Shown: piece after piece, positions 10 to 58,748 of the stretch
Numbering within the stretch: the stretch's first letter is position 1
How the letters are laid out: each line of letters starts with the position of its first letter
Source of the DNA: a virus
Length of the DNA stretch: 64,000 bases
IMG/VR virus record: IMGVR_UViG_3300027963_000048
Location: 51,615-115,614 of that record
Direction: 5' to 3' (one strand)
Translations under genes and position numbers: made by a program
Notes under the pieces: model-generated
What the model was told of the DNA's origin: nothing
Databases searched by the model: none
What the model saw: only the letters and a program-made list of their open reading frames with translations

Positions 10-558
10 TTGGTACCCGTGGATTTTGTAGAAGATGGCAATCTAAATCTGATATTAAATTACCTATGGGACCTCAAAGTTGGAGAATGGCCGGAAGGTG
101 AGAAAAGACTCCTTAACAGTGCTAGCTTAGAGGGTTTACGGTATGCTATACACGTACACAAACGTTCCATAGCCGTAGAGAATTGGCTGGCGGCAGAGTG
201 CTCAATCTTCCATGTCAAGGATTACGTAGCCCATGTGACGGATGGTAAACCGATTCCAGATTTCGAAGATAAAGCCATAGCGGCTATGAAGTCCTCTTTA
301 GCAACTAAGCCGCGTGATGGACAGTATCCGTATCCGGAACCTGTTTTCGCAGCGAGGTACGCACTTGAGGTATTAAAGCGACGGTGGCCTGCTGCTGAAA
401 ATATAATCTCGCTTGGTCGGCCTAACCATCCAGACATTGAAGCGTATTTTAAAGAATTCAATTATGCCATGGGTCATCAAGGCTTAACTAACCAACCGTC
501 AGGACGTACAGGAATGCCCGGCCAAAAGCCATGGGCTCTGTACAGCGAATCAAAGTAG
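10..558 (+). CDS. WPxAE-repeat protein, 5' end possibly outside window
   Basis: A 182-residue reading frame from a TTG; the frame stays open to the first base of the window, so the true start may lie upstream. It carries diverged copies of the repeat seen in the next two genes (a W-P-x-A/G-E core followed by Y-A): GEWPEGEK near residue 26 and RWPAAENI near 124. Function is unknown. It ends 13 nt before the next paralogue, so the three probably arose by tandem duplication and share transcription. Confidence 0.7.
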   Translation: MVPVDFVEDGNLNLILNYLWDLKVGEWPEGEKRLLNSASLEGLRYAIHVHKRSIAVENWLAAECSIFHVKDYVAHVTDGKPIPDFEDKAIAAMKSSLATKPRDGQYPYPEPVFAARYALEVLKRRWPAAENIISLGRPNHPDIEAYFKEFNYAMGHQGLTNQPSGRTGMPGQKPWALYSESK

Positions 559-571
559 GCACGGAGATCAC

Positions 572-2035: not shown

Positions 2036-2077
2036 GCGCTAGAGAAAGCCAAACAATATAGAGCCATCAAAGCCTAA
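2036..2077 (+). pseudogene. Remnant of a WPxAE-family gene
   Basis: Directly after the stop of the preceding gene and in the same frame, 13 codons read ALEKAKQYRAIKA before a TAA. This matches the segment ALEKIREHKAIKAS of the gene at 2157 and VLAKMRQYKAIKAS of the gene at 572. It looks like a scar of recombination or deletion between tandem paralogues. Confidence 0.6.
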
Positions 2078-2156
2078 ACCACCACGGCCACTAGCCGCTT
2101 CCTGCGCTCATATCATAGCAAATTTAACATGTACCCAATTTACAGGTATTCATAAA

Positions 2157-3563
2157 ATGAAGTTATCACTTATCCTAGAGGCGAAGCTTAATCATACTTG
2201 GCTCGAAAAACAGCTCGGTAAAGATCACCCAGCAGTGCAAAAAATCGTAGACACGGATCCGACCGGTGGCTTTTATTATGAATGGTTGGTGCAAAGATTT
2301 AAACAAGCGAACACAGACCAATTTCTAACACCGCAATTGCGAGATTCAATCGTCGAATGGGATAGAAACAAGCAAGTGCTGCGTAATCTAAATATCGATG
2401 CTGACTTAAATGGTAAAAATTTAGCTTATTTTAATGATGCTTTAGAAAAGATCCGAGAACATAAGGCCATTAAAGCATCATCAGTGCGCGGTTCAGGCGT
2501 GACGCACATGGGCACGGAGTACCCAGGCGCAAAGGTCATATATGATGATGGTCAGTATGTTCTCTTTAAAATCGAAGGTACGAGCCCAGAGGCAATCGAC
2601 AGCTTAGAGCGATTGGGAGTGGGTACTCGTTGGTGCACGAGAAGAGGCGGTAGAGTTAATAAGGCAGCTGAACATTTAAGCACAGACACACAGTATGTGC
2701 TTTACAAAGATAAAAAGCCATTATATCAATTCGACTCTAGTGAATTTAAGGACACTCACAATCTTCCCGAATATAGCATACCAGACAAAGCGTCAGCGCT
2801 CATAATGTTAGACTATGTGGGACCTATCAACGATACTCTAAAATTCGCCGCTGCAGTTTACGAATACGATACCTCAATGCTGTCTGAAGTGCCTGAAATT
2901 CTTGCTCGTTACCTGAGTGGAAACTTACCGACTTTCATTCAACCATCTGAAGTGATTGAGCAGTATCTATTACAACAATGCGAAAATGGCGAGGACGAAG
3001 AGGCAGCTTACCATCTCATCGATTATGCAAAACACTACAGAGTAGGCCGTTGGCCAGCGGCAGAGCCGTATTTGATACATGATCCTAAAACGGCATATGC
3101 TTACGCTGATAGAGTCATCGGTGGTCGATGGCTCGAAGCTGAATCTATCATTGCCAAAAGCGCTACTGCCGTTAGCTACGCCATTGCCTTCTTCGGGGGT
3201 GACAGATGGCTTGAAGCCGAACCATATCTGCTTAACGAAGGTGAGGTAATACATGCCATACTCTATGCTGGTAAAGTATTAGAAGGGCGCTGGCCAGCTC
3301 TAGAGCATCGTATCGCAAAAATGGATCAGCCGCTGTTTGCCATGATGGAATACACAAGGTTGGTACTCAATCGCCTTCCAAATGGCCCAAAGTCGCTGCC
3401 TGAATTTGAGCAAGCTGTGATCAACGATCCTTACAAAGCATATAATTATGCTAGGCGTGTTATTAACGCAAGGTGGCCAGAAGCAGAACCTATAATTATG
3501 GCGTCGAAATATGCAAATGATTACCAACACTGGCTAACAGCCAAAGAGGCGCTACCGTTTTAA
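2157..3563 (+). CDS. WPxAE-repeat protein with WCT motif, second copy
   Basis: 468 residues, paralogue of the gene at 572: same MKLSLILEAKLN start, same VGTRWCTRRGG motif near residue 160, and about five degenerate WPxAE repeats in the C-terminal half (RWPAAEPYL, RWLEAESII, RWLEAEPYL, RWPALEHRI, RWPEAEPII). Strong identity is confined to the first 180 residues; the repeat region has diverged more. No catalytic signature is recognised. Confidence 0.85.
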   Translation: MKLSLILEAKLNHTWLEKQLGKDHPAVQKIVDTDPTGGFYYEWLVQRFKQANTDQFLTPQLRDSIVEWDRNKQVLRNLNIDADLNGKNLAYFNDALEKIREHKAIKASSVRGSGVTHMGTEYPGAKVIYDDGQYVLFKIEGTSPEAIDSLERLGVGTRWCTRRGGRVNKAAEHLSTDTQYVLYKDKKPLYQFDSSEFKDTHNLPEYSIPDKASALIMLDYVGPINDTLKFAAAVYEYDTSMLSEVPEILARYLSGNLPTFIQPSEVIEQYLLQQCENGEDEEAAYHLIDYAKHYRVGRWPAAEPYLIHDPKTAYAYADRVIGGRWLEAESIIAKSATAVSYAIAFFGGDRWLEAEPYLLNEGEVIHAILYAGKVLEGRWPALEHRIAKMDQPLFAMMEYTRLVLNRLPNGPKSLPEFEQAVINDPYKAYNYARRVINARWPEAEPIIMASKYANDYQHWLTAKEALPF

Positions 3564-3607
3564 TAGTCGATCAATAAATAAAGCACACGCTACTGCAGGA
3601 TTTGATT

Positions 3608-4870
3608 ATGACTGATGCCGCAATTACCGTTATCCTTAACGGCTATAAACGACCACACGTGTTAGCCGAGCAGTTGCAAGCTATCGAAAGTCAGACAATC
3701 AAGCCCGTTCAAATTATGTTTTGGAAAAATGCCAGCGACGCCACCTTTGACCAAGACCTAATTGCCAGATGTCAATCATTTACCAGTAGCGTAAATGTGG
3801 GTGTATGGGGACGATTTGCGTTAGCCCTGCTAGCGGAAGGCGAATACGTTTGCGTCTTCGATGACGACACAGTTCCGGCCCCAAGATGGCTCGAAAACTG
3901 CGTGACCTCGATGAAAAAACGAAGGGGGCTCTTCGGTACCATCGGTGTCGTTTTCGACACAGACCAAGGCTACGATGGACAAATCAGGCGCTTCGGCTGG
4001 GATACTCCCATTGACGATATTAAACAAGTAGACATAGTCGGTCACAGTTGGTTCTTTGAAAAGAAAATGCTAGAATATTTCTGGCGAGAAATCCCAGACC
4101 GTAAATTTTACCTATGCGGCGAAGACATGCACTTCTCATACATGCTGCAAAAATATGCGAACTTGCCTACTTTAGTCCCACCGCATCCAGCTCAAGATCA
4201 ATCACTCTACGGTTCAATTCCGGAAAAAGCGATGAAATATGGGATGGAGCCGGTCGCAATTTCACATGGCACCAATTGCAACGTTAAATTCAACGATTAC
4301 CTGTTCAAGATACGAAGTGGAGGTTTCAAGCTGCTAAAAGATAATTACCAAAGACCATACTTAATAACACAATTTAAATTTATAGATGTTTACGATGCTA
4401 CGGTCTCAGATGGAGCGCCAGACTGGCGTACCCCATATGAATTGGGCCTTGCTTATAAATTCCTTGCTACGCTAGCACGCCTTAATACTACCATGTCAGT
4501 AAAGTATAATAGTGAGTCGATGTCGCTGGTAAACAAGCATCCGTTCCCACTGGATACTGAAAAACCAACCATTTACGTTGACGTGAAGGGAATAGATCTA
4601 AGCCAAGCGGACTGCATTGAGCGCTTGCGCAGTAAGATCGACCTGATTAATCACGGTGGTTACTATATTGGTTCAAGCCTTTTTAACGGAGCTACGGAAC
4701 ATCCCGAAAATGGCCAGCACATCGATATGCTTAAACAGTTAGAAGCTATGGTTGGGGCACCGGTTGAAGGCAAGAATTCTATCATCAAGCTAAATGGGTC
4801 AAATAGCACAAATCCAGACACAAATCATATGTTAGATTCGATCTTGTTCCTCATTATAAAGAAGATCTAA
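3608..4870 (+). CDS. GT2-like glycosyltransferase
   Basis: About 420 residues. ATG at 3608 is preferred over a TTG at 3602 because an AGGA lies 8 nt upstream. The N-terminal 230 residues are a GT-A fold: ITVILNGYKRP start, FDDDT as the metal-binding DxD motif, and CGEDMHFSYML as a likely catalytic-base region. The C-terminal 130 residues are not recognised. It converges on and overlaps the epimerase gene by 39 nt and belongs to the glycan island. Acceptor and donor are unknown. Confidence 0.82.
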   Translation: MTDAAITVILNGYKRPHVLAEQLQAIESQTIKPVQIMFWKNASDATFDQDLIARCQSFTSSVNVGVWGRFALALLAEGEYVCVFDDDTVPAPRWLENCVTSMKKRRGLFGTIGVVFDTDQGYDGQIRRFGWDTPIDDIKQVDIVGHSWFFEKKMLEYFWREIPDRKFYLCGEDMHFSYMLQKYANLPTLVPPHPAQDQSLYGSIPEKAMKYGMEPVAISHGTNCNVKFNDYLFKIRSGGFKLLKDNYQRPYLITQFKFIDVYDATVSDGAPDWRTPYELGLAYKFLATLARLNTTMSVKYNSESMSLVNKHPFPLDTEKPTIYVDVKGIDLSQADCIERLRSKIDLINHGGYYIGSSLFNGATEHPENGQHIDMLKQLEAMVGAPVEGKNSIIKLNGSNSTNPDTNHMLDSILFLIIKKI

Positions 4871-5836
4871 CAGTTTACCGGCTGCGAAACCATCACCGTA
4901 AGGTGACGGTAACACAACGCGATACTGTAATTTAGCTGAAAATAATTCATGTAATTGGCGTGGACTAGGACACAAGAATGCATGAGTATCGATACCCTCT
5001 ACGCGTTCCGTACTCGCACGACATACAATCGCTGTCTTCTTGAGAAATGAAGCCTCCTCCTGTATCCCACCAGAGTCGGTAATCACCAGCTTGCATCTCG
5101 CCAGCAAAGCAAGGCAGTCGTCATGAGGCAAAGGGTCCACAGCGTGCACTTTTCTTAAGATGCTCACGTGCTTGGTTACACTAGGGTTATGATGCGCTGG
5201 TAATATGAATTTAAGCTCCGGGTAAGCTAAGGCTAGATTTTCGAAAGCCTTAAACCATGCTTCTATATGCTGCAAGTTCTCACGACGATGCATGGTAATT
5301 AGCACTTCATCACCATAAGTGACGCTAAGATCCCTAAGATTATCGAGTGCCGTATTACCGATCACTGGTGCTAGAGCGTAAATCTTCTCATTACGTAGGT
5401 TGGTGGCAGCCCGTTGCGTAGGACAAAGATTGATCGTAGCTATTCGACTGATCATCTGCCTATATGCTTCTTCCGGATATGGACGCTTCAGATCGTACGT
5501 TCTAAGCCCAGCTTCTAGATGCAAAAGGATCTTGTTGCGATGAAACGCAGCCAGAGCGCAAGTTAATGCAGTAGCCGTATCGCCCTGCACAATCACATGG
5601 CTAATACCGTTGAAGATCTGGTCAGTCATAGCTCCAATTGAGCTAACTATTGCATCAAGTCTGTTATCAGCATACGATACTGAAAGCACGTGGTCAGCTG
5701 GTTCGGTCACCTCTAGATTATAGTGTTGGCCAATATATAATGTCCTGTAGGAAATGCTACGGGCTTTGCATTCCTTGATGATCGGTTTAAGCTTAATATA
5801 TTCAGGTCTGGTGCCGTAGCATAGTAAAATCGGCAT
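4832..5836 (-). CDS. wecB: UDP-N-acetylglucosamine 2-epimerase
   Basis: 334 residues, slightly shorter than the usual 370-380. Family motifs in order: CYGTRPEYIK, QGDTATAL, LHLEAGLRT, RPYPEEAYRQ, VIGNTALD, TMHRRENL, ITDSGGIQEEASF and STERVEGI. The family interconverts UDP-GlcNAc and UDP-ManNAc. One nucleotide separates it from the dehydrogenase gene upstream, so the two are translationally close. Together they could make UDP-ManNAc and its uronic acid (inference from WecB/WecC pairs). Confidence 0.9.
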   Translation of the reverse strand: MPILLCYGTRPEYIKLKPIIKECKARSISYRTLYIGQHYNLEVTEPADHVLSVSYADNRLDAIVSSIGAMTDQIFNGISHVIVQGDTATALTCALAAFHRNKILLHLEAGLRTYDLKRPYPEEAYRQMISRIATINLCPTQRAATNLRNEKIYALAPVIGNTALDNLRDLSVTYGDEVLITMHRRENLQHIEAWFKAFENLALAYPELKFILPAHHNPSVTKHVSILRKVHAVDPLPHDDCLALLARCKLVITDSGGIQEEASFLKKTAIVCRASTERVEGIDTHAFLCPSPRQLHELFSAKLQYRVVLPSPYGDGFAAGKLLDLLYNEEQDRI

Positions 5837-5837
5837 G

Positions 5838-6908
5838 TTATTCCTCTAAAGCGTATTCAAACTTCCAGCCATACATCTTTCTCAATTGATCTATGACCTG
5901 CTGACGTTCTACTATAGTGACCTTCGTGCCCTTAGCGGCGATTGCGTTAGCAAAAGCGAGACGCTGCGAATTATCTAATATAGTTGATTCATCTTTAAAG
6001 GTCACACGGTCCATCACAATGGACGTTTGGTCCTTAGCCTCGTCAACCATAAACATCAAGTGCGAGTCGTTTGCTTGATCTATGGCTACGTTTAGTTCAG
6101 CCGAGATTTTCACATCCTCAGAAGCTTTAATATAAGCTTTATTGTCGCGAGGTAAGCACGGTCCACCATAGCCAAATCCGTACTTAAGACAATGGTGATT
6201 TATTCTTCTGTCGTCGCCTATAGCATTTAGTACCACATCAGAGTTGCCTTTATATCTAGATACCATATCGCCTACTTTATTAGCATACGCTATCTTCATC
6301 GTCAGGAAAACATTGGTTGCTAATTTGGTAATTTCAGCCTCGGCAAACGACATCATCTTTACGGACGGCTTATTGAGACAAATGCTGCGATGTAATTCTG
6401 CAATTATGGACATCGACCTTGTGTCGGTGCCCCCGATCAACACCACGTCTTGGTTCTGCTGGTCTCGAATGATCGACCCCTGAGCGATGAATTCAGGGTT
6501 ATAAATGAGATGGTTATGATCCACTAGATTTAGCACAGTAGCGCAATAGCCTGGCATAACAGTAGAATTAATGGCTATTACTTTATCACGTAGCCCTAAG
6601 GCTCGGATATCACGCAGCGCCTGCGTGATCAAAGTGTGATCGTAAGACCCATCAGGCAAGCTGGGTGTGGGCAGGACTATGAAGATGACATCTGCCTCTG
6701 CGATGTGAGAGAGGTCATCTCCGATGATCAACCTTGAATCGGCAAGGTAACTCTCTACCATTGGCTCCGCAGTGTGTAGTGCTTTGGTCCTGATCGCCTC
6801 GACCAATTTAGCATCTGTGTCACATGCATAGATTTGGTGGCCCGCTTTGTCAAGATTAAGGGCAAGACATAAGCCTAATTTCCCAACACCTATGATGCCG
6901 ATCTTCAT
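5838..6908 (-). CDS. UDP-glucose/UDP-ManNAc 6-dehydrogenase family
   Basis: About 356 residues from ATG at 6908, chosen over GTG 6920 because GAGG sits 7 nt before it. Rossmann motif GVGKLG near the N-terminus, STVMPG, NPEFIAQGS, central KLATNVFLTMKIAYAN with the conserved Lys and Asn, and GYGGPCLPRD with the catalytic Cys. The C-terminal nucleotide-binding domain is shorter than in typical 420-residue members. NAD-dependent oxidation of a UDP-hexose is expected. Pairing with WecB suggests a UDP-ManNAc dehydrogenase (WecC-like). Confidence 0.88.
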   Translation of the reverse strand: MKIGIIGVGKLGLCLALNLDKAGHQIYACDTDAKLVEAIRTKALHTAEPMVESYLADSRLIIGDDLSHIAEADVIFIVLPTPSLPDGSYDHTLITQALRDIRALGLRDKVIAINSTVMPGYCATVLNLVDHNHLIYNPEFIAQGSIIRDQQNQDVVLIGGTDTRSMSIIAELHRSICLNKPSVKMMSFAEAEITKLATNVFLTMKIAYANKVGDMVSRYKGNSDVVLNAIGDDRRINHHCLKYGFGYGGPCLPRDNKAYIKASEDVKISAELNVAIDQANDSHLMFMVDEAKDQTSIVMDRVTFKDESTILDNSQRLAFANAIAAKGTKVTIVERQQVIDQLRKMYGWKFEYALEE

Positions 6909-6919
6909 AGCCAGCCTCA

Positions 6920-7528
6920 CTAGCTCACAAGACGCTGTATGGCCGAATGGACCTGGTCGGTCCAGCGATCGCCACGCACATCTGTTATGTGTTCAATATA
7001 TACATCTTGGTGTCTGCTCGCCATCTGCGGATTGTTAGTTAATAGTAATAGCTTACTATTAGGCCGACTGTGTATGAAATATTCCCATAATTTCACTCGA
7101 TCGTATGTTACAACAAATGGTAAAACTGACCAGCTTGATTTGGCATAATCGTTATATGGATCTTCGTCTATAGCGTGTCTACAGAACAATATTTCATCTG
7201 TGCTGTAGAATACGCTGAGCAAACGGTGTAATCTTCTCTGATACGTGGTTCTGACCTCGTCGTTCTCTACCCACCATGGTTCAACGCGTGCATATTCATG
7301 GAACAAGAAGGCATCATTGTCTGGAGACAATAGAAACCCGTCACGCAGGTAACGCATATTAAAATCGAAGAAATGCTTGCCGCCAGACGCAATACATTTG
7401 GTGACGAAGGATTGAGAAGTGATATTCCAGTCAAACGGGTACGCTGGTTGGTTAAACTTCCTAATTACAGTGGTTAACATGCAGCCGCCGTAGCCGCCTA
7501 GATTTACTATTATCACATTTTGATCCAA
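6920..7528 (-). CDS. DUF1796-like protein (putative papain-like fold)
   Basis: 202 residues. The start NLGGYGGCMLTTVIRKFNQPAYPFDWNITS matches the DUF1796 pattern of a small-residue turn with Cys followed by a YPFDW motif; FFDFN and FHEYAR follow, and LLLLTNNP near the C-terminus. Such proteins occur in surface-polysaccharide loci and were proposed to be cysteine-peptidase-like, but activity is unproven. It overlaps the fucosyltransferase gene by 16 nt, so it is part of the same operon. Confidence 0.65.
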   Translation of the reverse strand: MDQNVIIVNLGGYGGCMLTTVIRKFNQPAYPFDWNITSQSFVTKCIASGGKHFFDFNMRYLRDGFLLSPDNDAFLFHEYARVEPWWVENDEVRTTYQRRLHRLLSVFYSTDEILFCRHAIDEDPYNDYAKSSWSVLPFVVTYDRVKLWEYFIHSRPNSKLLLLTNNPQMASRHQDVYIEHITDVRGDRWTDQVHSAIQRLVS

Positions 7529-8370
7529 TTATCTAAATAAAGCCTACGATGCAATAAATCTGGCTCAGTACCCATGAAGTAATCTTTTGGCGCTACAATT
7601 GATTTTACGGGTTTGGCTAAATAACCAACCCATAGACCAAAAGTGGTGAATGGCGATAAGATGCTGCCATCACACAATTCCATTAGTTTAAAATCTTCAA
7701 GTGTGTTATTTCCGCTGGAAAAGATGAAATTATAACGATATTCTGCTAGGATCTGTTTTGCTGCAGTTAAATCACGGTCATGTTGGCCTTCCTTAACATC
7801 TCTTGACCCGCCAGCGAAGACGAAATAATCGGCATTACCGAAGTATTCGAAGGCTCTGTCTAGATAATTTTTCAATGGATCGCCCATCATCACAGCTTCG
7901 CACGTATCTTTCTGTGGGCTCATGAATATGTTATCGCCCAGGCGTAAATGCAGGCTAACGACTTTACTGTGCTTGCGTGACGGCGCTATTGCTTCAAACT
8001 TATGATGTGCGCTGGCGAACGTGTTAGAGTTAGCGTTAAGGCCTACACACTTCCTTATCTGAGGCAGATGCTGTTCGAAGTAGCGTACATCTTGAAAATA
8101 TCCAGCGATATCGACATTGTCAGGTGTTTGAAAAAATCCGTCAGTATATGTGCTAGCTTCTTCTACGGTGCAACCGGTTTTGACTTCTTTAAATTCTTCT
8201 GGGATGTTTAGATGCTTCAGTAGGCATTCTTGATTGTGCCATATTTTGGTGTCGGTGGGCGGTAAACACATTTCGTAGTTATTCGTCAGGGCTAAGCTTT
8301 TGAGTGCAGCGTACTGGAACAACTGGTTACCAAATCGACCCATAGTGCCGATTCTAGAAAACGTTATCAT
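7513..8370 (-). CDS. GT11 alpha-1,2-fucosyltransferase-like
   Basis: 285 residues. GT11 motifs: RIGTMGRFGNQLFQYAAL at the N-terminus, IAGYFQDVRYF in the middle, VVSLHLRLGDNI (the HxRxGD GDP-fucose-binding motif) near residue 140, and a C-terminal block around FSSGNNTLEDFKLMELC. The expected reaction is transfer of a deoxyhexose from a GDP-sugar onto a glycan. No GDP-fucose synthesis genes are in the window, so the host probably supplies the donor. Confidence 0.85.
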   Translation of the reverse strand: MITFSRIGTMGRFGNQLFQYAALKSLALTNNYEMCLPPTDTKIWHNQECLLKHLNIPEEFKEVKTGCTVEEASTYTDGFFQTPDNVDIAGYFQDVRYFEQHLPQIRKCVGLNANSNTFASAHHKFEAIAPSRKHSKVVSLHLRLGDNIFMSPQKDTCEAVMMGDPLKNYLDRAFEYFGNADYFVFAGGSRDVKEGQHDRDLTAAKQILAEYRYNFIFSSGNNTLEDFKLMELCDGSILSPFTTFGLWVGYLAKPVKSIVAPKDYFMGTEPDLLHRRLYLDNWIKM

Positions 8371-9011
8371 ATGGTCCTCATATTTTTAAAAACAGTGAAC
8401 TCAGTTAAATCTCGATAGCCATTGATCTCTTGGCTATCAGGAACATGCTCGGGATAATTGTGCATCAGCTCTAAGCCCCGGGCTGCGACAGAAGGCGCCA
8501 TGTACATGTTCCAGCCACAGAACGTGATATCATCTTCCTTGTAGAATTTCTCGGACCGTCCTTCATAACGCGCTTTTTTAAGCCAATTAACGGCATCTAT
8601 ATTATCAGTCAATATCATGCCGCCTTTGCCAATATTCAACTGCTTCTTAATATGAAAACTCAAGCAGTAAAACTGGCCTGCATTATACATTTTCGAGGTG
8701 AAACGTTTAGCACTGTCGTGGATAGGATACGGTTTAAGCTGGTATTGGCCAGTCCAGTGGTTTACGCTCCCACTCTTATCAAAGACTACTTCACCACCGG
8801 CGTGGATTATCGACATCGGCACGCTGAGGTAAGTCTTTGCTGGAATGGTGACAGTTTGCACATTCAAGTACTTGCAGCAAAGGAATATCGCATTTGTACA
8901 TGAATCTACGGAGACTGCATAAGGTGCTCCGGTATAATGTGCCACTTCATCTTCAAACATCTCAACGATTTTAAAAGGGTTATGCTTCGATAGATTAGCG
9001 GGCATCATCAC
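8367..9011 (-). CDS. DegT/DnrJ/EryC1-type aminotransferase, short
   Basis: 214 residues against about 370 for typical members. Preserved features: SVDSCTNAIFL (PLP-phosphate binding), VTIPAKTYLSVPMSIIHAGG, HDSAKRF at the PLP-pyridine Asp position, and SFHIKKQLNIGKGGMI with the Schiff-base Lys. The C-terminal domain is missing or strongly reduced. It could make an amino sugar from a keto sugar; the truncation makes activity uncertain. Its 3' end overlaps the fucosyltransferase start by 4 nt. Confidence 0.8.
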   Translation of the reverse strand: MMMPANLSKHNPFKIVEMFEDEVAHYTGAPYAVSVDSCTNAIFLCCKYLNVQTVTIPAKTYLSVPMSIIHAGGEVVFDKSGSVNHWTGQYQLKPYPIHDSAKRFTSKMYNAGQFYCLSFHIKKQLNIGKGGMILTDNIDAVNWLKKARYEGRSEKFYKEDDITFCGWNMYMAPSVAARGLELMHNYPEHVPDSQEINGYRDLTEFTVFKNMRTI

Positions 9012-9405
9012 GTTCCAGGATGTAATACTTCTGTTTAAAGCCAGCCTTTAGGAACAGCTGAAGACTAGCCTCGTTATCAACCTTCACCTTTGCGTAAAGT
9101 CCTTTGCGATTTTTTAGGTATTCGTTGATCATGAACGACGCTATGCCTTTGTTCTTGTGCTCGTGCACAACGCAAACCCTCAGGTCGCCATCTATGTCCC
9201 CCACGAAACCAACAGGCTCATCAGCATCTGTGACACAAATCTTGTAATCTTGATGATGATCCATCATATATGCTGTCTGCTGGTCTGGAGTAATTTGGAC
9301 TTGCTGTATAAACCCTTGGGCATTGCGTGGATCGTTCCTTAAGCTTCGGACGAAACCCCAATAATCAAGAGAGCAATTCACCAGTTTATACTTTACCATA
9401 TGCAT
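8995..9405 (-). CDS. GNAT-family N-acetyltransferase
   Basis: 136 residues. The acetyl-CoA loop VCVVHEHKNKGIASFMINEYL resembles the (R/Q)xxGxA motif, followed by VDNEASLQLFLKAGFKQK, the classic motif B end. Between an aminotransferase and glycosyltransferases, an N-acetyl-amino-sugar role is plausible (inference). ATG at 9405 or the one two codons later could start it. It overlaps both neighbours. Confidence 0.8.
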   Translation of the reverse strand: MHMVKYKLVNCSLDYWGFVRSLRNDPRNAQGFIQQVQITPDQQTAYMMDHHQDYKICVTDADEPVGFVGDIDGDLRVCVVHEHKNKGIASFMINEYLKNRKGLYAKVKVDNEASLQLFLKAGFKQKYYILERDDAR

Positions 9406-10163
9406 AGCTTCCTCATATCATCGTGCGTTTCACCTTTATGTATATGGAGGTAGCCCCTATTGCATGTAAGTCCAAGTAGATGATTCATCGTAGTGCCAAC
9501 ATTAATGTAAGTGTTCTGTGGATTAACTTGATGTAGTCTATGAATGAGCATTTGAGTCAAGCTAGACGCTGAGAAGATGAAAAGATGATTCGTTATTTGA
9601 GACTCCTGCACCCATTGGGTCATTTCCTCAATAAGTGGCTGATCATTCACTATACAGTTAGTGCCTACTTTAAACCATTTCACAGGCTTAACTGTAGGAT
9701 GCAGATTGGCGCTGCCGTTAGCTATTAAAACTAACGTGGGATGTGCAAGGATCAACGGCAATATGTGGTCTAAAAAATACGGATAATTGCCATTTACAAG
9801 AAGATTAGCCCAAGTCCAATATTTAGTCTCTGCACACAAGGTATCGAAGAACATCCTGTTCTCGTGGCCCACGCAACATTTGCATGATATACCTTTATAG
9901 TACTCTGGCGCATCGTACTTAAATGAAGCTATCAACTTGTCGACTATCTGTCGGTGAGCCACCGGATCTACGTCTTTGTGATCCTCTGGAGCCCAGGCAG
10001 CATGATACCTCTGATCGCCAACTATCGACTCATCTGCGCTAAGCCTTAAACGCTTTCCTTGCATGATAAACATTTCGCCATCGGAGTAGCGCGTGAATGC
10101 AAAGTTTTCACCATTTAGCATCTTGGTATGCAAATGGGTCAAATCTGACCTAAATTCTTTCAT
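9393..10163 (-). CDS. GT-D-fold (DUF1792-like) glycosyltransferase
   Basis: 256 residues. Residues 20-32 read FAFTRYSDGEMFI, matching the R-(Y/F)-x-D-G-E signature of the DUF1792/GT-D group. LVLIANGSANL and IFSASSLTQMLIHRL fit later Rossmann-like segments. It sits inside the glycan operon and overlaps the DUF268 gene by 14 nt. Sugar and acceptor cannot be inferred. Confidence 0.55.
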   Translation of the reverse strand: MKEFRSDLTHLHTKMLNGENFAFTRYSDGEMFIMQGKRLRLSADESIVGDQRYHAAWAPEDHKDVDPVAHRQIVDKLIASFKYDAPEYYKGISCKCCVGHENRMFFDTLCAETKYWTWANLLVNGNYPYFLDHILPLILAHPTLVLIANGSANLHPTVKPVKWFKVGTNCIVNDQPLIEEMTQWVQESQITNHLFIFSASSLTQMLIHRLHQVNPQNTYINVGTTMNHLLGLTCNRGYLHIHKGETHDDMRKLCIW

Positions 10164-10854
10164 GGTGTTTACCGTTCATCAGTACCAGCACAGGTTGATA
10201 TGGCGTCATCTCCACCGTATTTATCGTCTGCTCCCACCAATTCGCCGTAAGGCCGAATTGATCCAGAATATTCCACCGTTCACATAATTTTATCAGCCTT
10301 TTTCCGTAGATGCGGTGCACGTTGAAAACTGTAAGATCCCTACCGACTGGAACAGCTAAAAAATGCAAACCATTGGGCCTAACTAGGTCTACCAATTTTG
10401 TCATAGTCTTTAAATCGCCGTTAGCATCAATAGGATCGCCATATCTTCCAAGGCCATCATGTTCCACGGAAGAGATATTAAGGCAAGCGTCGAAGCGTCG
10501 GTTTAGGCTTTCGGGCTTCACATACTTAATGGCCTCATTGACAAATGGCCGATCGCCATATTCTGAGACGGTGACAGTAGCTGCTCCAAATACAAGGCAG
10601 ATAGCCTCATACCATGGGTTAGCTGAACCTATTAGTAGAACATCCATGCCAACTATAGGGTACTGCCTTAGTGCTTGATAGAGCCATGCGTCAGTTTCGC
10701 CGTAATAATAAGTCGCTCCGGTTCGGACCGCATCCATGTATTCGATAAATCTGGCTGGTGTATAGTTTAATGAATGGTCTAGCTTAGAGTCATCCCTCAC
10801 GTTAAATGCTATAGGCTCATCTAGTTGAGCCAGATATTGGTTTAAAGCACTCAT
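10150..10854 (-). CDS. DUF268 (methyltransferase-like) protein
   Basis: 234 residues, first gene of the minus-strand glycan operon. DUF268 features: VLLIGSANPWYEAICLVFGAATVT, SISSVEHDGLGRYGDPI-like segment (here NISSVEHDG), GDLKTMTKLVDLVRPNG, FLAVPVGRD and NVHRIYGKR. The fold resembles SAM-dependent methyltransferases, but the activity of the family is not established. Confidence 0.75.
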   Translation of the reverse strand: MSALNQYLAQLDEPIAFNVRDDSKLDHSLNYTPARFIEYMDAVRTGATYYYGETDAWLYQALRQYPIVGMDVLLIGSANPWYEAICLVFGAATVTVSEYGDRPFVNEAIKYVKPESLNRRFDACLNISSVEHDGLGRYGDPIDANGDLKTMTKLVDLVRPNGLHFLAVPVGRDLTVFNVHRIYGKRLIKLCERWNILDQFGLTANWWEQTINTVEMTPYQPVLVLMNGKHHERI

Positions 10855-50491: not shown

Positions 50492-50609
50492 GTTTGGATT
50501 ATCTGTTGGGTCGGGATTCTCCTGTGTCGTCTGCTAGTTGAATCTGTAGTTGTAGTTGTCGTAGATTAGCTCCAAAGATAATGAGTATCCAGTGCGAGGA
50601 GTTTAAGCT

Positions 50610-51791
50610 ATGAGAATCTACCGATCCGAATGCGATTTAGAGAATTACTTTGTAGTAGATTATTATCTAGAATCGAAAACCACTTTAGCTGAAGCTGCTT
50701 GGAATCTGGCTATAGGGCAAAGTGTAGGTAATCCAAATCAAAGAAACGCCTGGGAATCTGACGAGCTTTTCGATAAGCACTCTTGTATAGTGCTAGGTGA
50801 AGAAGCGGAACTGCGGAATCTCTTCAAAGGGCATGTGAGTATCGCTTTTCCAGTTGTAAACACTAATTGGAAGGAAGATGGTATAAGTCATCTTTTATGT
50901 CAGATTATGGGAGGGCAACTAGATATTGATATCATCACGAAATGCCATGTCGACCGTATTCGTTTTCCGAAGTCGATTGAATCACAGTTTAATAAACCGA
51001 CGTTTGGTATAGACGGCATTAGGTCATTCACTGGCGTGCACGGTAAGCCTTTGTTGGGTGGAATTGTGAAGCCGAAAACTGGCGTTTCGGCTGATGTTTT
51101 GTTGGAAATGGTGAAGCAGATGGTCGATGGCGGTGTCAATTTTATTAAGGAAGACGAAATCCTGTCTAATCCCGCCTTTTGTTCAATAGAGGAACGTGTT
51201 CCGAAGATTATGAAATATCTGGATGGCAAGAGGGTCATCTATTCCGTGTGTATTAACAGTGATCCGGCTTATAGTGTTAAGCGTGCTCAATTGGTCCATG
51301 AGTTGGGTGGTAATTCGGTCCATATTAATTTTTGGAGCGGCCTTGGTGTCTACAAGTCTATTCGCGATTTGCAATTGCCACTTTTTATACATTTTCAGAA
51401 GAGTGGCGATAAAATACTCACCAATCAAAACCACGATTTTCATATCAGTTGGAATGTTGTGTGTGATTTAGCTGGGTTAATGGGTGTCGATTTTATTCAC
51501 GCTGGTATGAGTGGCGGTTATTCAACTACATCAGATTTAGAGTTACGACTTGCCATTGACAGATTGCATAAGCGGAATGTTATGCCAGCTTTATCTTGTG
51601 GGATGCATCCTGGATTGGTGCAATCTATCAATGGTAAATTCGGCTTAGATTATATGGCGAATGTGGGTGGTGCGATACATGGTCATCCGATGGGCACGTC
51701 AGGTGGTGCTCGTGCTATGCGTCAAGCGATAGATGGCTGTCACGGTGATGAGTATAAACTTGCTATTGAGAAATGGGGATTGTATGAATGA
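50610..51791 (+). CDS. RuBisCO-like protein (form IV-like large subunit homologue)
   Basis: 393 residues, GAGGAG upstream. N-terminal domain about 1-135 ends in FGIDGIRSFTGVHGKPLLGG; then KPK (K154, K156, equivalent to spinach K175/K177), FIKEDE (K180, D182, E183, equivalent to the carbamylated Lys and Mg ligands K201/D203/E204), H261, FIHAG at 298, LSCG (S329) and a GGAIHGHPMG phosphate loop near 354. The loop-6 Lys (K334) appears replaced (MSGGY), as in RuBisCO-like enolases and related enzymes that do not fix CO2. Substrate unknown. It shares an operon with a methyltransferase and a glycosyltransferase-like gene. Confidence 0.88.
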   Translation: MRIYRSECDLENYFVVDYYLESKTTLAEAAWNLAIGQSVGNPNQRNAWESDELFDKHSCIVLGEEAELRNLFKGHVSIAFPVVNTNWKEDGISHLLCQIMGGQLDIDIITKCHVDRIRFPKSIESQFNKPTFGIDGIRSFTGVHGKPLLGGIVKPKTGVSADVLLEMVKQMVDGGVNFIKEDEILSNPAFCSIEERVPKIMKYLDGKRVIYSVCINSDPAYSVKRAQLVHELGGNSVHINFWSGLGVYKSIRDLQLPLFIHFQKSGDKILTNQNHDFHISWNVVCDLAGLMGVDFIHAGMSGGYSTTSDLELRLAIDRLHKRNVMPALSCGMHPGLVQSINGKFGLDYMANVGGAIHGHPMGTSGGARAMRQAIDGCHGDEYKLAIEKWGLYE

Positions 51792-52386
51792 TTTCATTAA
51801 AGATTTTAGATTTGGCGACGACCGAGATGACCGTGATCATCCTTTTCACACTACATGTCCGGCGGTTGAGTTTAGCGATTGCAATAGGAATGCTCTTCTG
51901 GCGAGCTTTACTGAAGTAAGAGACCGGGCGAAAGCTATTTTGGAAATCGGAGTGTGTCGAAACGGTTTTGCATCTTCAACGTTTGTCTTTTTGAATAATA
52001 AAAAAGACGATACGATTTATCTTGGTGTAGATTTAGAGTCTAAAGCCGCATTGAATAACGCGGCTAAAAACGTGCATACTTTGGTTGGTGATTCTAGTGA
52101 CACTGAATTGATTATGCGTTATGCTAATTCTTTAAAGATTGAGCGATTCGATTATATTTTTATTGATGGCTTCCATTCCGTTAACCAAGTTATTAGAGAT
52201 TGGGCTTTTGTAGAGCATTTGGCTGACGGTGGTATTGTTGGCTTGCACGACACGAATAGGCATCCTGGTCCAGTGGCCTTATTGGAGAGCATTAACGAGA
52301 GTAAATGGGAGGTGATTCGTCTATGTCAAGACGATTCAATGAACGTCACAGACAATGGTATTGCGTTTTTGAGGAAGCGAGTGTAG
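51784..52386 (+). CDS. Class I SAM-dependent methyltransferase
   Basis: 200 residues, ATG inside the end of the RuBisCO-like gene (8-nt overlap). ILEIGVCRNGFASSTFVF is motif I, LGVDLESKA motif II, and FDYIFIDGFHSVNQVIRDW, then GGIVGLHDT, motifs IV-V, as in TylF/Methyltransf_24 sugar or small-molecule O-methyltransferases. Tight coupling suggests it acts in the same pathway as the RuBisCO-like enzyme. Confidence 0.82.
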   Translation: MNDFIKDFRFGDDRDDRDHPFHTTCPAVEFSDCNRNALLASFTEVRDRAKAILEIGVCRNGFASSTFVFLNNKKDDTIYLGVDLESKAALNNAAKNVHTLVGDSSDTELIMRYANSLKIERFDYIFIDGFHSVNQVIRDWAFVEHLADGGIVGLHDTNRHPGPVALLESINESKWEVIRLCQDDSMNVTDNGIAFLRKRV

Positions 52387-52392
52387 GATATT

Positions 52393-53607
52393 ATGCCAGT
52401 ATTTATAAACCACAATGCGTACAACGTTATTTTACATGGTCCGCAAGGCCAGCCCACTTTATTATCTAGTAAGCAGATAATAGAGTTACCAGATTTTTAT
52501 TTACGGTACGTTAAAAGGGGTTATGTCAGACAGCTTGCCGCACATAAAGCTTCGCCTAATCAAATTCTTAATTCGATGCCAAAAAGGCCGCAGCCTAACC
52601 CGATAAGGCCTGCAATATCTACCACTTTAGCTCCAGCTACCACTTTAGCTCCAGCTACCACTTTAGCTCCAGCTACCACTTTAGCTCCAGCTACCACTAC
52701 AAGTCGGCCTTTTGTTGCTACTGGTAAACCAGTCACTGCAGCTCCTACAGCGCCGGAGTTTCAAAGTGGTAAGATACTGCATTACAATGATTTTAGGGCT
52801 CCTGACTATTTGAATGATATGATTTTCCATGGTGGTAAGTCGTTATTTGGCGCTAACTATATTGACTTCTGTGACGCTAGCTACATGTACGACGACTACG
52901 TTGGCTTAAGTAAGTTGTATGGTCGCGGGTTTACGGTTTATGGTAAGTTGCGCAGGCATAGGCACGTCGAAACTGACATTGACGAGAAAATAAAGTCTAG
53001 ATACTATGATTATATTATCATAGGGTCAGTGTTTCGGTATCGGCACAAGTTAGACTTTATTAGAAGCATATATCCTAAGAATAGAATCATAGTGATAGAT
53101 GGCGAGGATGAAACCCATTATTATCCGGAGTACACGTCAGACACTTTGTATTTCAAACGTGAACTGCAGCCGGGGATAAAAGACGTTTTGCCCATTTCAT
53201 TTAGTGTTCCTAAAGAATTGTTCGTTAATTTCATTCCTGATAAAGATCAAATGATCTCAGATACGCAACCAGCTGGCCCTAGTTCGTATATATATGACGA
53301 CGAGAAATTGTATTATAGCAATTATCAGAGGTCATATCATGGTCTTACAAGGAAAAAGGCTGGCTGGGATTGCTGTCGCCATTATGAGATCATTATGAAT
53401 TACTGTATGCCACAGTTTTATGATTTGGAATCATGTCCACCTACCACTATGGTGCATTTTCCTAAGCGACAGATATTGGAGTACGCTCAATATGCAGATT
53501 TCGAAAAAAATCGATATTTTGATACTATGTCTGATATTTTTGAATACAGTAAGAAGCATCTTACGACAGAAGCTATGATGAAGTATGTTTTAAGCTTCAC
53601 TGCTTAG
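52393..53607 (+). CDS. Putative glycosyltransferase-like protein with TTLAPA repeats
   Basis: 404 residues. N-terminal 65 residues form a small domain (PVFINHNAYNVILHGPQGQP), then a linker with four perfect 18-bp repeats encoding TTLAPA (52618-52695). The C-terminal 270 residues include YDYIIIGSVFRYRHKLDFI, IIVIDGEDETHYYPEY, FSVPKELF and KAGWDCCRHYEIIMNYCMPQ, typical of uncharacterised glycosyltransferase-like proteins. Could attach a sugar to a virion or host structure. Ends overlapping the polymerase gene by 11 nt (convergent). Confidence 0.65.
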   Translation: MPVFINHNAYNVILHGPQGQPTLLSSKQIIELPDFYLRYVKRGYVRQLAAHKASPNQILNSMPKRPQPNPIRPAISTTLAPATTLAPATTLAPATTLAPATTTSRPFVATGKPVTAAPTAPEFQSGKILHYNDFRAPDYLNDMIFHGGKSLFGANYIDFCDASYMYDDYVGLSKLYGRGFTVYGKLRRHRHVETDIDEKIKSRYYDYIIIGSVFRYRHKLDFIRSIYPKNRIIVIDGEDETHYYPEYTSDTLYFKRELQPGIKDVLPISFSVPKELFVNFIPDKDQMISDTQPAGPSSYIYDDEKLYYSNYQRSYHGLTRKKAGWDCCRHYEIIMNYCMPQFYDLESCPPTTMVHFPKRQILEYAQYADFEKNRYFDTMSDIFEYSKKHLTTEAMMKYVLSFTA

Positions 53608-55306
53608 AATTGGAGCTAATTTTGGGAGCCTTGTGCAGTCTGAAATTATTCACCTTTACGGAAGTGCTATTTATAGATCCTTCGCCTTCTACAAAGTCAT
53701 ATGACGAATAGTGAACGTACCCATTTAGTACTAATTCTAGATATTTGCCAGTGTCATAGCCGACAGTCATAAATGTTATTTTCCTCTTATCGACACCATG
53801 GTGTCTGCCGGTGGCTATTAAACCTCTGAATTTTACTTGGTTGCCATTGCGTTCACAAAAGCACCCGGGCATGAATTTCTCACTAATCCAGTAGCCACGT
53901 CTGTTATATTGCCATAATCCTTTGCCTCGTTCCTCTACGATAGACGGGGTTAAAACATTGCCGTCTAGTTTCCAAGGGCCTTTACCAAAGGCTCCAAAGA
54001 CCAGTCCAGCTGCTTTAGCTTCCTGCACATGAACCCATGGCCTGTACATGCTCTCAGCGTGATTGAGGACACTACACCAAAATTTAAATGGCTGATGTGC
54101 CTTTTCGTAGGCTAAAGCCCAAACTAGTTGGCCGTAATTTACTGCGTGGGCACGGCAGAAACTATACAAGCTAAAACGATTTAGATCGTTGACAATTTGT
54201 GCTTGATTTGGATGGTATTTGGTCTTCTCGATGAATTCTGCGATTTTGTCATATTTCTTCTTACTGAACGCATTCCTGTAAAGTTCCGCTTCAGATTCAG
54301 AACAATTTAACAGATCTCGAATGTAAAATATCCCGTCATCGTCGTAGACCATTTGGCCCAAGTAATTGCCATGTTGCCTCAACTGCCGCAAAATCTGCAT
54401 TCTTTTACCGTCAGCTGATGGTAAAGGTCTGATTAGAGCCAAAGAGAAAATGATATCATCACGGCATTTCGGCTGTAATTCAACATGCAGCTTCCTCTGA
54501 GCTGGACTCTCGCCGAAATTAACACCCCAAGCGCAACCATCCGAAAAGATTCTAGCTGTAGCTTCGTCATCGGCAGGATAGTTTTCCAGTGGCCTATTTG
54601 ACAACTCATTGAGCTGTGCCAAGCCACGATTACACAAGATGTCGATTTTAAATAATTTATGATCTTCTACTTCATCTTTATTCAATTTGATTTGAAAGTC
54701 ATTGAGTTTCAATTCTTCAGGTACTGAATCTGGGAAAATCACTATTCCACCGCAGTGTAGACTATAATTCTTGAAATCGCCAACTATCTCAGCTGCCCTG
54801 TTTAACACTTCATCGGATCTGTCACCGACTACATCTTTGAGATTAAATCCTTTTGGTAGGAATCTATGTAAGCCTATTTCACGTAAAGCTTGTCTGATAG
54901 CTGACGTAGATTTATAGGTGACATGGTTAGAGATTCTAGCGACACGCCCGGGATATTTTAGCATCACGCGTCTAATCACTTCATCTCTCTGATTGTAAGC
55001 GAAATCTAAATCTACGTCTGGGAGATCTAATCTTCCTTCGTGCATAAAACGGCTCAGGGCGAAGCCATGCTCGACCGGATCCATATTGTGGATACCTAGC
55101 AAATATCCTATCAAACTGCAGCCAGCAGACCCACGAGTGACATATCTGAATTCGGGTACAAGATCTAAAATAGATCGCACTTGCAAAAACACATCTTTAA
55201 AGTTATTTTGTTCGACAAGACGCATTTCTCTTGCAAAGCGATCAGCGTATGAACGCCCAGTGGGCAAAGGCCTACGAAATGCGGAGGTCAATTCCATATA
55301 TGTCAC
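53597..55306 (-). CDS. DnaE-type DNA polymerase III alpha, catalytic core without PHP
   Basis: 569 residues against about 1,100 for DnaE. Begins inside the palm: RYVTRGSAGCSLIGYLLGI (residues 54-72), catalytic Asp pair in LPDVDLDF (D99, D101), HCGGIVIF near 184, third Asp in LFKIDIL (D222), fingers segment LYSFCRAHAVNYGQLVWALA, and an OB-like end around GLIATGRHHGVDKRKITFMTVG. The PHP domain and first palm strands are absent and would have to be encoded elsewhere. Active residues are intact. A tRNA gene lies 18 nt upstream. Confidence 0.85.
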   Translation of the reverse strand: MTYMELTSAFRRPLPTGRSYADRFAREMRLVEQNNFKDVFLQVRSILDLVPEFRYVTRGSAGCSLIGYLLGIHNMDPVEHGFALSRFMHEGRLDLPDVDLDFAYNQRDEVIRRVMLKYPGRVARISNHVTYKSTSAIRQALREIGLHRFLPKGFNLKDVVGDRSDEVLNRAAEIVGDFKNYSLHCGGIVIFPDSVPEELKLNDFQIKLNKDEVEDHKLFKIDILCNRGLAQLNELSNRPLENYPADDEATARIFSDGCAWGVNFGESPAQRKLHVELQPKCRDDIIFSLALIRPLPSADGKRMQILRQLRQHGNYLGQMVYDDDGIFYIRDLLNCSESEAELYRNAFSKKKYDKIAEFIEKTKYHPNQAQIVNDLNRFSLYSFCRAHAVNYGQLVWALAYEKAHQPFKFWCSVLNHAESMYRPWVHVQEAKAAGLVFGAFGKGPWKLDGNVLTPSIVEERGKGLWQYNRRGYWISEKFMPGCFCERNGNQVKFRGLIATGRHHGVDKRKITFMTVGYDTGKYLELVLNGYVHYSSYDFVEGEGSINSTSVKVNNFRLHKAPKISSNSKQ

Positions 55307-55324: not shown

Positions 55325-55397
55325 TGGGCCCTCCGGGATTCGAACCCGGAACCAAGGGATTATGAGTCCCCTGCTCTGACCGTTGAGCTAAAGGCCC
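55325..55397 (-). tRNA. tRNA with CAT anticodon (likely Ile2, or elongator Met)
   Basis: Minus strand, acceptor GGGCCTT pairs with AGGGCCC (one T-G pair), discriminator A at 55325, no encoded CCA. Anticodon loop CTCATAA with CAT at 55362-55364; T-arm CCGGG-TTCGAAT-CCCGG. The anticodon-stem and CTTGGT variable region resemble bacterial tRNA-Ile2, which needs lysidine modification to read AUA; elongator Met is the alternative. Confidence 0.92.
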
Positions 55398-55474: not shown

Positions 55475-57502
55475 TTAGAGGCCGTATCTGGTGCTGTATG
55501 CGTTGTAGTTTTGGGTTATTTCGGTTGCGGTGAGTTGGCGGTTGTAGATTTGGGCTAGGGCGATTCGTCCTGAGAATACGCCATCTGTGTTACCGTTGAC
55601 GTTACCGATTAGGAATTTTGTCCATGCGTAGGTGGCGGTGGTTGATCCTGTTGCGGTTGTGATTAGGTTGCCGTTGATGTATAGTGTGATGGTGCGGTTG
55701 GTGCTGTAGTTGTATATTATTGTTAGGTTGTACCAGTTGTTTGCTGTTAGTTGGGTAAGTAGGCTGATTGTTGGGCTGGCGTTCCACCATTCTATGAGGC
55801 CGTTGTAGATTCTTAGGACGTTTGAGCTGTTGGGGGCGGTGTCGTATAGGTTGAGTTTGGTGGCGGTGACGTTGGTTGGGTATATCCAGAAGTTTATGGT
55901 GATTGGTAGGGTTGGGGTTGGGACTGCGGTGTCGATATATTGGTTGATGGTTGCGCCGCTGTTGATTGTGAAGTAGCTGGCTGTTCCGCTGGATGTGTAT
56001 GTGGGGGTGCCGCTGATGGTGCCGTTGTTTCCGTTTCCTGAGAGGTCGGTCCAGGTGGTTCCGGTTCCGGGGTAGCTTGCTGCGTTGCCTGCGTCGAGGT
56101 TTAGGATGAGGCCTGCGGTGATTGGTGGTTGGGTTTGTGGTTTGCTGTAGGTGGGGGCTTGGGTGTTGTAGTTTTGGGTGACTTCTGCTTGGGTTAGTGC
56201 GCGGTTGTAGATTTGGGCTGCGGATATTTTGCAGGCGTTGTATTCGCTGCCGTAGCCGTTGTGGATGTTTAGGATTTGGGCTGTGAAGTTGTTGGTGAAT
56301 GCGGTTTTGGTGGTTTTGAGTAGGCCGTCGAGGTAGGCGTATCCTATGGATGATTGGCGTACGAATACTACGTGGTGCCATGTGTTGACTGATAGTTTCC
56401 ATGTGGATGCGGCGGCGTAGTTGTCCCATGTTGGGGTGTAGAGGTAGAGTATGCCGTCACTGTTGTTGGCTTTTAGGGCGAGGGTGCTTTGGCTTGGTAG
56501 GGCTATGAGGTGTGTGTATTGGCCGTAGGCTGTTATGTTTATCCAGCAGCAGAAGGTGAAGTCGCCGGTTCCGAATGCGTAGCTGGCGTTTGATGGGCTG
56601 GTGGCGTAGTTGCTTGCGAAGGAGATGCTGCCGTTGTTGGATGAGTTGTAGGTTGGGCTGCTGGTGAGTGTTGCGTGGTTGGCTGTGGTGGATAGGTCGG
56701 TCCAGGTGGTTCCGGTTCCGGGGTAGCTGGCTGTGTTGGTGGCGTCGAGGTTTAGGATGAGGCCGGTTGTGGCGATTTGGGTGGCATTGTATCGGTCTTT
56801 GGTTGCGTTGTAGTTTTGGAGGATTTCGGTGGCGGTGAGTGCTCGGTTGTATACTTGGGTGGCGGCTATGTTGCCTGGGAAGACGGCTCCGTTGCCTCTT
56901 GCTGCTATGTTGAAGTTGCAGCTGGTGTAGTCGATTGATGTTGGGCTGGCGTTGCCTCTTACGGTGGTGGATGCTAGTGTGCCGTTGATGTAGACGGCTA
57001 GTCCTGCTGCGGTGTTGGCGCCGCTGTTGGTTCCGACGATGTTGACCCATTGGTTTGTTGGGAGGGTGTTGGCGTTGCCTTGTATTCCTATGAAGTTGGT
57101 GCCGTCGAAGTAGTCGAAGAAGAATGATTTGGCGCGGATTGATCCGTTGTCTGCTTGGAGGTAGTAGCCTTTGCCTCCTGCTACGCCGTATGAGGCTATT
57201 GTTGTGATGGCTGCGGCTGTTGGTCTCCAGTAGATCCAGGCTGAGATGGTGTATGCTTGGGTGTTGGTGAATTGCAGTCTGGTTTGCGTGCCGAATTGGA
57301 TGTAGTCGTCTGTGCCGTCGAATGTGATGCTTCCACCGTTTGCGCTTGTGTAGGTTGGGCCGAGGGTTAGGATTCCGTTTATTGCGTTTCCTGAGAGGTC
57401 GGTCCAGGTGGTTCCGGTTCCGGGGTAGCTTCTTGTGTTTGCTGCGTCTACGGCGAGTATTAGTCCGGATTCGTTTATTTCGGGGCCGCTATATGATGCC
57501 AT
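55475..57502 (-). CDS. Triple LamG-domain adhesin
   Basis: 675 residues made of three concanavalin A-like/LamG modules of about 215-225 residues. Each starts GLILxxDAxNxxSYPGTGTT then WTDLS, and each ends near IAxAQIYNRxLTxxEIxQNY. Typical of phage tail or surface adhesins that bind glycans. No signal peptide. The coding strand is C/A-rich, following the regional skew. Confidence 0.85.
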   Translation of the reverse strand: MASYSGPEINESGLILAVDAANTRSYPGTGTTWTDLSGNAINGILTLGPTYTSANGGSITFDGTDDYIQFGTQTRLQFTNTQAYTISAWIYWRPTAAAITTIASYGVAGGKGYYLQADNGSIRAKSFFFDYFDGTNFIGIQGNANTLPTNQWVNIVGTNSGANTAAGLAVYINGTLASTTVRGNASPTSIDYTSCNFNIAARGNGAVFPGNIAATQVYNRALTATEILQNYNATKDRYNATQIATTGLILNLDATNTASYPGTGTTWTDLSTTANHATLTSSPTYNSSNNGSISFASNYATSPSNASYAFGTGDFTFCCWINITAYGQYTHLIALPSQSTLALKANNSDGILYLYTPTWDNYAAASTWKLSVNTWHHVVFVRQSSIGYAYLDGLLKTTKTAFTNNFTAQILNIHNGYGSEYNACKISAAQIYNRALTQAEVTQNYNTQAPTYSKPQTQPPITAGLILNLDAGNAASYPGTGTTWTDLSGNGNNGTISGTPTYTSSGTASYFTINSGATINQYIDTAVPTPTLPITINFWIYPTNVTATKLNLYDTAPNSSNVLRIYNGLIEWWNASPTISLLTQLTANNWYNLTIIYNYSTNRTITLYINGNLITTATGSTTATYAWTKFLIGNVNGNTDGVFSGRIALAQIYNRQLTATEITQNYNAYSTRYGL

Positions 57503-58097: not shown

Positions 58098-58748
58098 TTA
58101 TAGGCCATATCTACTACGGCTTGCGGTGTAATACGTGATGATTTCTGATGCTGTTAATACTCTGTTGTATAGTGAGACTGACGCTATGTTGCCGTTAAAT
58201 GGATAGTTATATGCCGCGCTACCTTCTGCGCCTATTCCGAATGCGGCTATTGGATTTGTGAGAGTTCCACTATTCAAATTGGTAGAGCTGAGCAGATACC
58301 AGTTACCTACTGTTAGAACTAACGTATTGTTGGGTGTCGCCTGATAATCATTATAGTATAGTGTAGAACCGTCCTCTTGGTAGTAATTCGTAGTGCCAGT
58401 TCTTAGATACAGATCAATATAGTTATCAGTATCGCCATTGCCGATTATTTTTTGCCACCCTGCTGTACCATTCGCTTTACACCACACCAACGTGGTGTAG
58501 CCATTTCCTCCCTGCGATGTTTTTAAACTCGTCGGGAATCCAGTGCGGTAGAATCTGTTGGTTTGAGTGAAGCCACTGAATCCGTTTGTTTGTGAATATG
58601 TGAGAGTGCCATTTAGGGTAAAATGGTTATTATTGCCACTCAGATCATACCATATCGCTCCGCTGCCTGGATAACTTTTGATGTTACCGGCATCTAGCTG
58701 TAATAGTAGCCCTGTGGTAGGTACGTTTGGCCCATCGAAACAACTCAT
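58098..58748 (-). CDS. Single LamG-domain adhesin
   Basis: 216 residues, one module like those of the gene at 55475: GLLLQLDAGNIKSYPGSGAI, YDLSGNNNHFTL and IASVSLYNRVLTASEIITYY. Base composition is closer to average than in the triple-LamG gene, suggesting later arrival or different history. Confidence 0.8.
   Translation of the reverse strand: MSCFDGPNVPTTGLLLQLDAGNIKSYPGSGAIWYDLSGNNNHFTLNGTLTYSQTNGFSGFTQTNRFYRTGFPTSLKTSQGGNGYTTLVWCKANGTAGWQKIIGNGDTDNYIDLYLRTGTTNYYQEDGSTLYYNDYQATPNNTLVLTVGNWYLLSSTNLNSGTLTNPIAAFGIGAEGSAAYNYPFNGNIASVSLYNRVLTASEIITYYTASRSRYGL

Follow-up and report, generated by a model that had tools for sequence, protein, structure and literature searches.

The window that we analyzed (i.e., the whole 64-kb stretch of DNA) is the terminal part of a linear IMG/VR record of 115,614 bp and carries three consecutive genes on the plus strand. 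The first (50610 to 51791) is an intact open reading frame for a RuBisCO-like protein of 393 aa, and a ribosome-binding-site-like hexamer (GAGGAG; 50596 to 50601, plus strand) is located 8 nt upstream of its ATG. The second gene (51784 to 52386), read from the ATG at 51784, overlaps the first by 8 nt and encodes a SAM-dependent methyltransferase of the Methyltransf_24 family (PF13578; 32.9 bits against a cutoff of 26.3). The third gene (52393 to 53607; 404 aa) starts after a gap of 6 nt. The overlap, the spacing, and the methyltransferase assignment all agree with the original prediction, while its description of the third gene product as glycosyltransferase-like is unconfirmed and such an identity is only suspected, as searches of Pfam, PHROG, PDB, INPHARED, and IMG/VR returned no match. 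This protein consists of an N-terminal part, a TTLAPA-repeat linker, and a C-terminal domain with 28 to 41% identity to proteins from five other phage loci, where the corresponding genes precede the RuBisCO-like gene by 4 to 10 positions. A Glyco_trans_1_2 match was obtained for one of six relatives of the third gene and was weak (E = 0.053), and a single-sequence structure model of the protein reached a pLDDT of only 35.

The 115.6-kb contig encodes a terminase, a portal protein, and a T4-type major head protein, which identify it as part of a T4-like phage; the nearest INPHARED relative of the head protein (39%) belongs to an uncultured 595-kb phage. These genes bear out the phage origin that had been presumed and rule out a chimeric or cellular contig; a further argument against such a contig is that relatives of the RuBisCO-like gene turned up in other viral loci, 35 of them initially and at least 289 later. 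Several other regions of the contig were annotated. A second glycan cluster (window positions 3602 to 10854) contains genes for a GT2 and a GT11 glycosyltransferase, a UDP-GlcNAc 2-epimerase, a UDP-glucose/GDP-mannose dehydrogenase, a short DegT-type aminotransferase, and DUF268 and DUF1796 proteins. Three tandem proteins with the common start MKLxLILEAKLN are encoded at positions 50496 to 55177 of the record (G000:C1; about 1 to 3563 of the window). Downstream of the three-gene stretch, a 569-aa DNA polymerase III alpha-like protein (53597 to 55306, minus strand), which matches the family in its NTPase/finger parts only, is possibly the product of a split polymerase gene and adjoins a tRNA-Met gene (55325 to 55397). 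It is followed by a large repeat protein with three Laminin_G_3 domains (55475 to 57502, minus strand) and a shorter relative (58098 to 58748, minus strand), both of which resemble adhesive virion proteins.

The 393-aa protein is a member of the RuBisCO large-chain superfamily. It matched PF00016 well above the Pfam cutoff (E = 3.3e-34; 119 bits against 30.1), and its best match in a PDB sequence search was 8dht (E = 8e-39); a 21-letter RuBisCO-like peptide used as a PDB query gave no match. An AlphaFold2 model based on 25 homologues (pLDDT, 85.4; pTM, 0.86) has the RuBisCO fold, with 2oem (MtnW) and 2d69 (form III) as the top Foldseek matches in the PDB (E, about 3e-29; TM score, about 0.8). 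The motifs previously recognized in the sequence (i.e., KPKxG, the metal-site motif, here reading KEDE, and GGxxxGHP) are all present.

The reference alignment separates the two halves of the active site. Residues for carbamylation, metal binding, and enolization are retained in the clade to which the protein belongs (Lys175, Lys177, Lys201, Asp203, Glu204, Ser379, and Gly381), and the window protein itself keeps the equivalents of Lys175, Lys177, Lys201, Asp203, Glu204, His327, and Ser379. The substitutions are Lys334 to Tyr, His294 to Gln, Glu60 to Gly, Thr65 to Asn, and Asn123 to Gly. The loss of the loop-6 Lys that had been noted earlier is a change to Tyr, and Lys334, Glu60, His294, and Asn123 are all substituted in each tabulated representative of the clade. 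Across 129 clade members, KEDE and GQSxGNP are invariant, KPKxG and SCG occur in 128, position 294 is always Gln, the loop-6 Lys is always missing, and position 334, as located by motif, is Tyr in 127. A viral subgroup departs further from this pattern: His327 is replaced by Gln in 35 of the 129 members, most of which also have Ser for Arg295, and at the latter site Lys-Ser-Gly-Asp is replaced by Ser-Ser-Gly-Ala in 31 members. These changes suggest an altered phosphate site or substrate; since they affect about one-quarter of the members, one substrate need not suit all of them. Another RuBisCO homologue in the data set, from an archaeon, is very divergent and lacks the Lys201 site altogether (L108; G078:C51).

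The phage proteins and their cellular relatives formed a single clade with full support (100/100) both in a 65-row tree and in a 40-row tree to which Deep-Ykr was added and from which long branches were removed. The clade is located outside forms I and III, MtnW, and OiaX in both trees and outside Deep-Ykr in the 40-row tree; for form II, the only sequence was a long-branch one in the 65-row tree. The sister group in both trees comprises OiaX and the four-carbon-acid-sugar RuBisCO-like proteins (93/87 and 97/91, respectively). NCBIfam scores are far below the cutoffs for form III (179 against 497 bits), MtnW (154.9 against 409 and 126.3 against 513.6 bits), and OiaX (134 against 700 bits), and the protein is separate from proteins of the 3qfw type, which we take to be Deep-Ykr. 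As judged from its aligned residues, the protein is of form IV in the broad sense (i.e., a RuBisCO fold with the carboxylation residues lost), as had been predicted, but it belongs to none of the named subgroups tested (MtnW, Deep-Ykr, and OiaX). MtnW, the DK-MTP-1-P enolase of form IV-Ykr, shares the fold, the Lys201 carbamate site, and the lack of carboxylation with the phage protein and is its best Foldseek match; it differs in forming a separate clade, at Lys177, His294, and other aligned residues, and in its genomic context, which is methionine salvage rather than a nucleotidyltransferase. Unplaced RuBisCO-like groups were reported from the Global Ocean Sampling data (PMC1821046) and were later named IV-GOS. 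An overlap of the phage/SAR11 clade with these aquatic groups is plausible, the trees containing no reference sequences of IV-GOS, IV-Photo, or IV-NonPhoto.

A RuBisCO homologue in a phage had been regarded as rare. This view does not hold: 35 IMG/VR loci with a relative were found in a first scan and at least 289 in a profile scan, although none was found in the annotated phage references (i.e., INPHARED, PHROGs, and BFVD). Among 21 long contigs carrying the gene, a T4-type head protein was detected in 11 and a terminase match in 13. Cellular relatives occur in SAR11 single cells, in nanoarchaeal and other metagenome-assembled genomes, and in Legionella and Azospirillum; among the nearest relatives, contigs classed as cellular may in some cases be of viral origin. 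In cells it is an accessory gene, being present in 3 of 297 SAR11-order genomes and 4 of 22 genomes of the genus Legionella.

The members of this distinct and widespread clade of phages and microbes have a conserved nucleotidyltransferase partner. The usual cassette comprises a sugar-nucleotidyltransferase, a cupin, the RuBisCO-like protein, and a GDPD-like protein of about 150 aa. At a distance of up to four genes from the RuBisCO-like gene, we found the nucleotidyltransferase in 104 of 107 viral loci, the cupin in 75, the GDPD-like gene in 82, and relatives of the Methyltransf_24 gene in 46. The first three families are concentrated near the RuBisCO-like gene relative to positions farther away (transferase, 136 of 967 versus 5 of 1,812 genes; cupin, 79 of 967 versus 1 of 1,812; GDPD-like, 95 of 967 versus 3 of 1,812), these counts being nonindependent samples because the viral loci are related to one another. 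A related transferase is also located near the RuBisCO-like gene in Legionella, Azospirillum, Elusimicrobia, SAR11, and Verrucomicrobia, whose RuBisCO-like proteins are only 36 to 45% identical to that of the window. The nearest solved relative of the transferase is 4evw, annotated as an NDP-sugar pyrophosphorylase; in the GDPD-like family, the HRG, E-x-D, and HD motifs are conserved and the match to GDPD structures is weak, and the cupin is divergent. Glycosyltransferases of several families and epimerases surround the phage loci, and three Legionella loci have an adjacent LicD gene in divergent orientation. A sugar-activation context for the clade is therefore well supported, and sugar biosynthesis, proposed earlier from the three genes of the window, remains the best reading of the neighboring genes.

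Cultured Synechococcus phages encode related transferases, and no RuBisCO-like gene was found near the transferase in the four that were inspected. In phage Bellamy, gp206 is a transferase fused to ribose-5-phosphate isomerase B (RpiB; PF02502, E = 4e-32) and is followed by a cupin. This fusion occurs in 30 IMG/VR loci, Bellamy among them, mostly followed by cupin and GDPD-like genes. The partner families of this cassette are those of the RuBisCO-like cassette, usually in the same order, but an RpiB domain stands where the latter has the RuBisCO-like protein. Over flanks of about 8 to 10 kb on each side, the 30 fusion loci were all devoid of a RuBisCO-like gene, and RpiB was absent from all 128 RuBisCO-like loci. 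Such exclusion is a suggestive contextual argument for a shared reaction, although RpiB could act at another step. Another fusion partner of the transferase, in Synechococcus phage S-SKS1 and ten IMG/VR contigs, is DHBP synthase (PF00926, E = 5e-65), which acts on ribulose-5-phosphate; the S-SKS1 gene (L189:7001-8428) is annotated as DHBP synthase and is really a nucleotidyltransferase-RibB fusion. No cupin or GDPD-like gene accompanies this fusion, its transferases branch within those associated with RuBisCO-like genes, and in one further locus (L187) DHBP synthase lies three genes from a RuBisCO-like gene. HAD-transferase fusions were found as well. Read together, these arrangements point to a slot in the cassette for a sugar-phosphate enediol enzyme, whose occupant is the RuBisCO-like protein in some loci and RpiB or DHBP synthase in others.

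Given the loss of the carboxylation residues and the position of the family beside a sugar-activating enzyme, synthesis of an unusual sugar is probable, rather than carbon fixation. With moderate confidence, we propose that the RuBisCO-like protein is a non-carboxylating sugar-phosphate isomerase or epimerase that feeds an activated sugar into glycan synthesis. The proposed chemistry is inferred from established RuBisCO chemistry, with enediolate formation kept and CO2 addition lost. Because neither the metal site with its carbamylated lysine nor the base lysine has been lost, the enzyme would be expected to bind a ketose phosphate, presumably pentulose-phosphate-like, and to form a Mg-enediolate as in the first step of RuBisCO; with Lys334, Glu60, His294, and Asn123 gone, addition of CO2 would not be expected. 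Reprotonation of the enediolate would then amount to isomerase or epimerase activity. A biochemical precedent for isomerization of a ribulose-type phosphate comes from the Rhodospirillum rubrum RuBisCO-like protein (Deep-Ykr; 3qfw group), an isomerase that has a cupin enzyme as its partner (PMC4958253). The product would be activated by the partner nucleotidyltransferase and processed further by the cupin, the GDPD-like protein, and the methyltransferase, and glycosyltransferases would move the sugar onto a virion or host-surface glycan. More tentatively, the clade could represent a phage-disseminated branch of the RuBisCO superfamily with new catalysis, making a ketose- or tetrulose-type phosphate for a novel nucleotide-activated sugar, with RpiB and DHBP synthase swaps varying the sugar; this broader possibility is the less likely of the two.

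For the window phage itself, the same role would be an extrapolation, because the partner genes are missing: transferase, cupin, and GDPD-like genes were found nowhere across the 115.6-kb contig, and the methyltransferase is the only cassette-associated family in the window. Part of the genome may be absent from the contig; alternatively, this member may act by itself or together with enzymes of the host. That the gene is an orphan, acting with the methyltransferase alone or losing its function, is rather unlikely, since the open reading frame is intact with every clade-conserved residue present, it is tightly coupled to the methyltransferase gene, and a linear contig may be a fragment.

The reading as an isomerase or epimerase for a surface sugar also has to be weighed against other sugar substrates and destinations. 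The sister position of OiaX and the four-carbon-acid-sugar proteins, whose substrates are sugar-derived phosphates, would fit a decarboxylase or other enzyme acting on sugar-acid phosphates. We regard this as improbable, because both reference groups hold Lys334, His294, and Arg295, which are missing in the clade, the OiaX cutoff is far above the score obtained, and no four-carbon-acid kinase was recognized in the cassette. Some relatives of T4-like phages glycosylate their DNA, and many of the contigs carrying the gene are from T4-like phages, so the cassette sugar might be destined for hypermodified phage DNA instead of a surface glycan. The cellular relatives in SAR11 genomes and beside LicD in Legionella, together with the several glycosyltransferase families around the phage loci, make that destination no more probable than a sugar-acid substrate.

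Fainter still is the prospect of a thio-sugar enzyme, in which an isomerase and a cupin lyase would serve methionine or isoprenoid salvage like the MTA-isoprenoid shunt of R. rubrum. In its favor, a cupin stands beside the RuBisCO-like protein in most phage cassettes, which is the pairing known from R. rubrum (PMC4958253). However, the clade lies outside Deep-Ykr and MtnW with full support and has an active-site pattern other than that of Deep-Ykr, its most constant partner is the nucleotidyltransferase with glycosyltransferases and epimerases around it, and the resemblance is weak, cupins being diverse. Least credible by a wide margin is the reading that automatic annotation (rbcL, EC 4.1.1.39) would give, namely, a functional RuBisCO engaged in CO2 fixation during infection: despite the superfamily membership (PF00016) and reports of other viral rbcL genes, carbon fixation and catalytic forms I to III are contradicted by the Tyr, Gly, Gly, and Gln at Lys334, Glu60, Asn123, and His294, by the form III score, and by the clade's position outside forms I to III, which upholds the earlier expectation of a protein outside the catalytic forms, and the neighbors are glycan genes.

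Viral rbcL genes have been interpreted as CO2 fixation genes (PMC12615777; PMC8506154), and one showed activity when coexpressed with rbcS (PMC12615777). The available part of a study on landfill phages describes RbcL clustering with RbcL-like proteins, mentions that rbcL was also called in IMG/VR viruses taken at random, and gives CO2 fixation as the only function, with neither a cassette nor an analysis of the active site (PMC12607003). In the accessible portions of the open-licence literature, the pairing of a RuBisCO-like protein with a nucleotidyltransferase matched only a review on phototrophic sulfur bacteria. RuBisCO homologues from viral metagenomes are easily labeled as carbon fixation genes, and the present clade, which lacks the carboxylation residues and is located in sugar-activation cassettes, should therefore not be counted toward viral CO2 fixation. 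The RpiB version of the cassette in cultured cyanophages makes the pathway testable. If the isomerase reading is true, the RuBisCO superfamily would gain a function, and unusual sugars of phages or cell surfaces would gain a route of synthesis.
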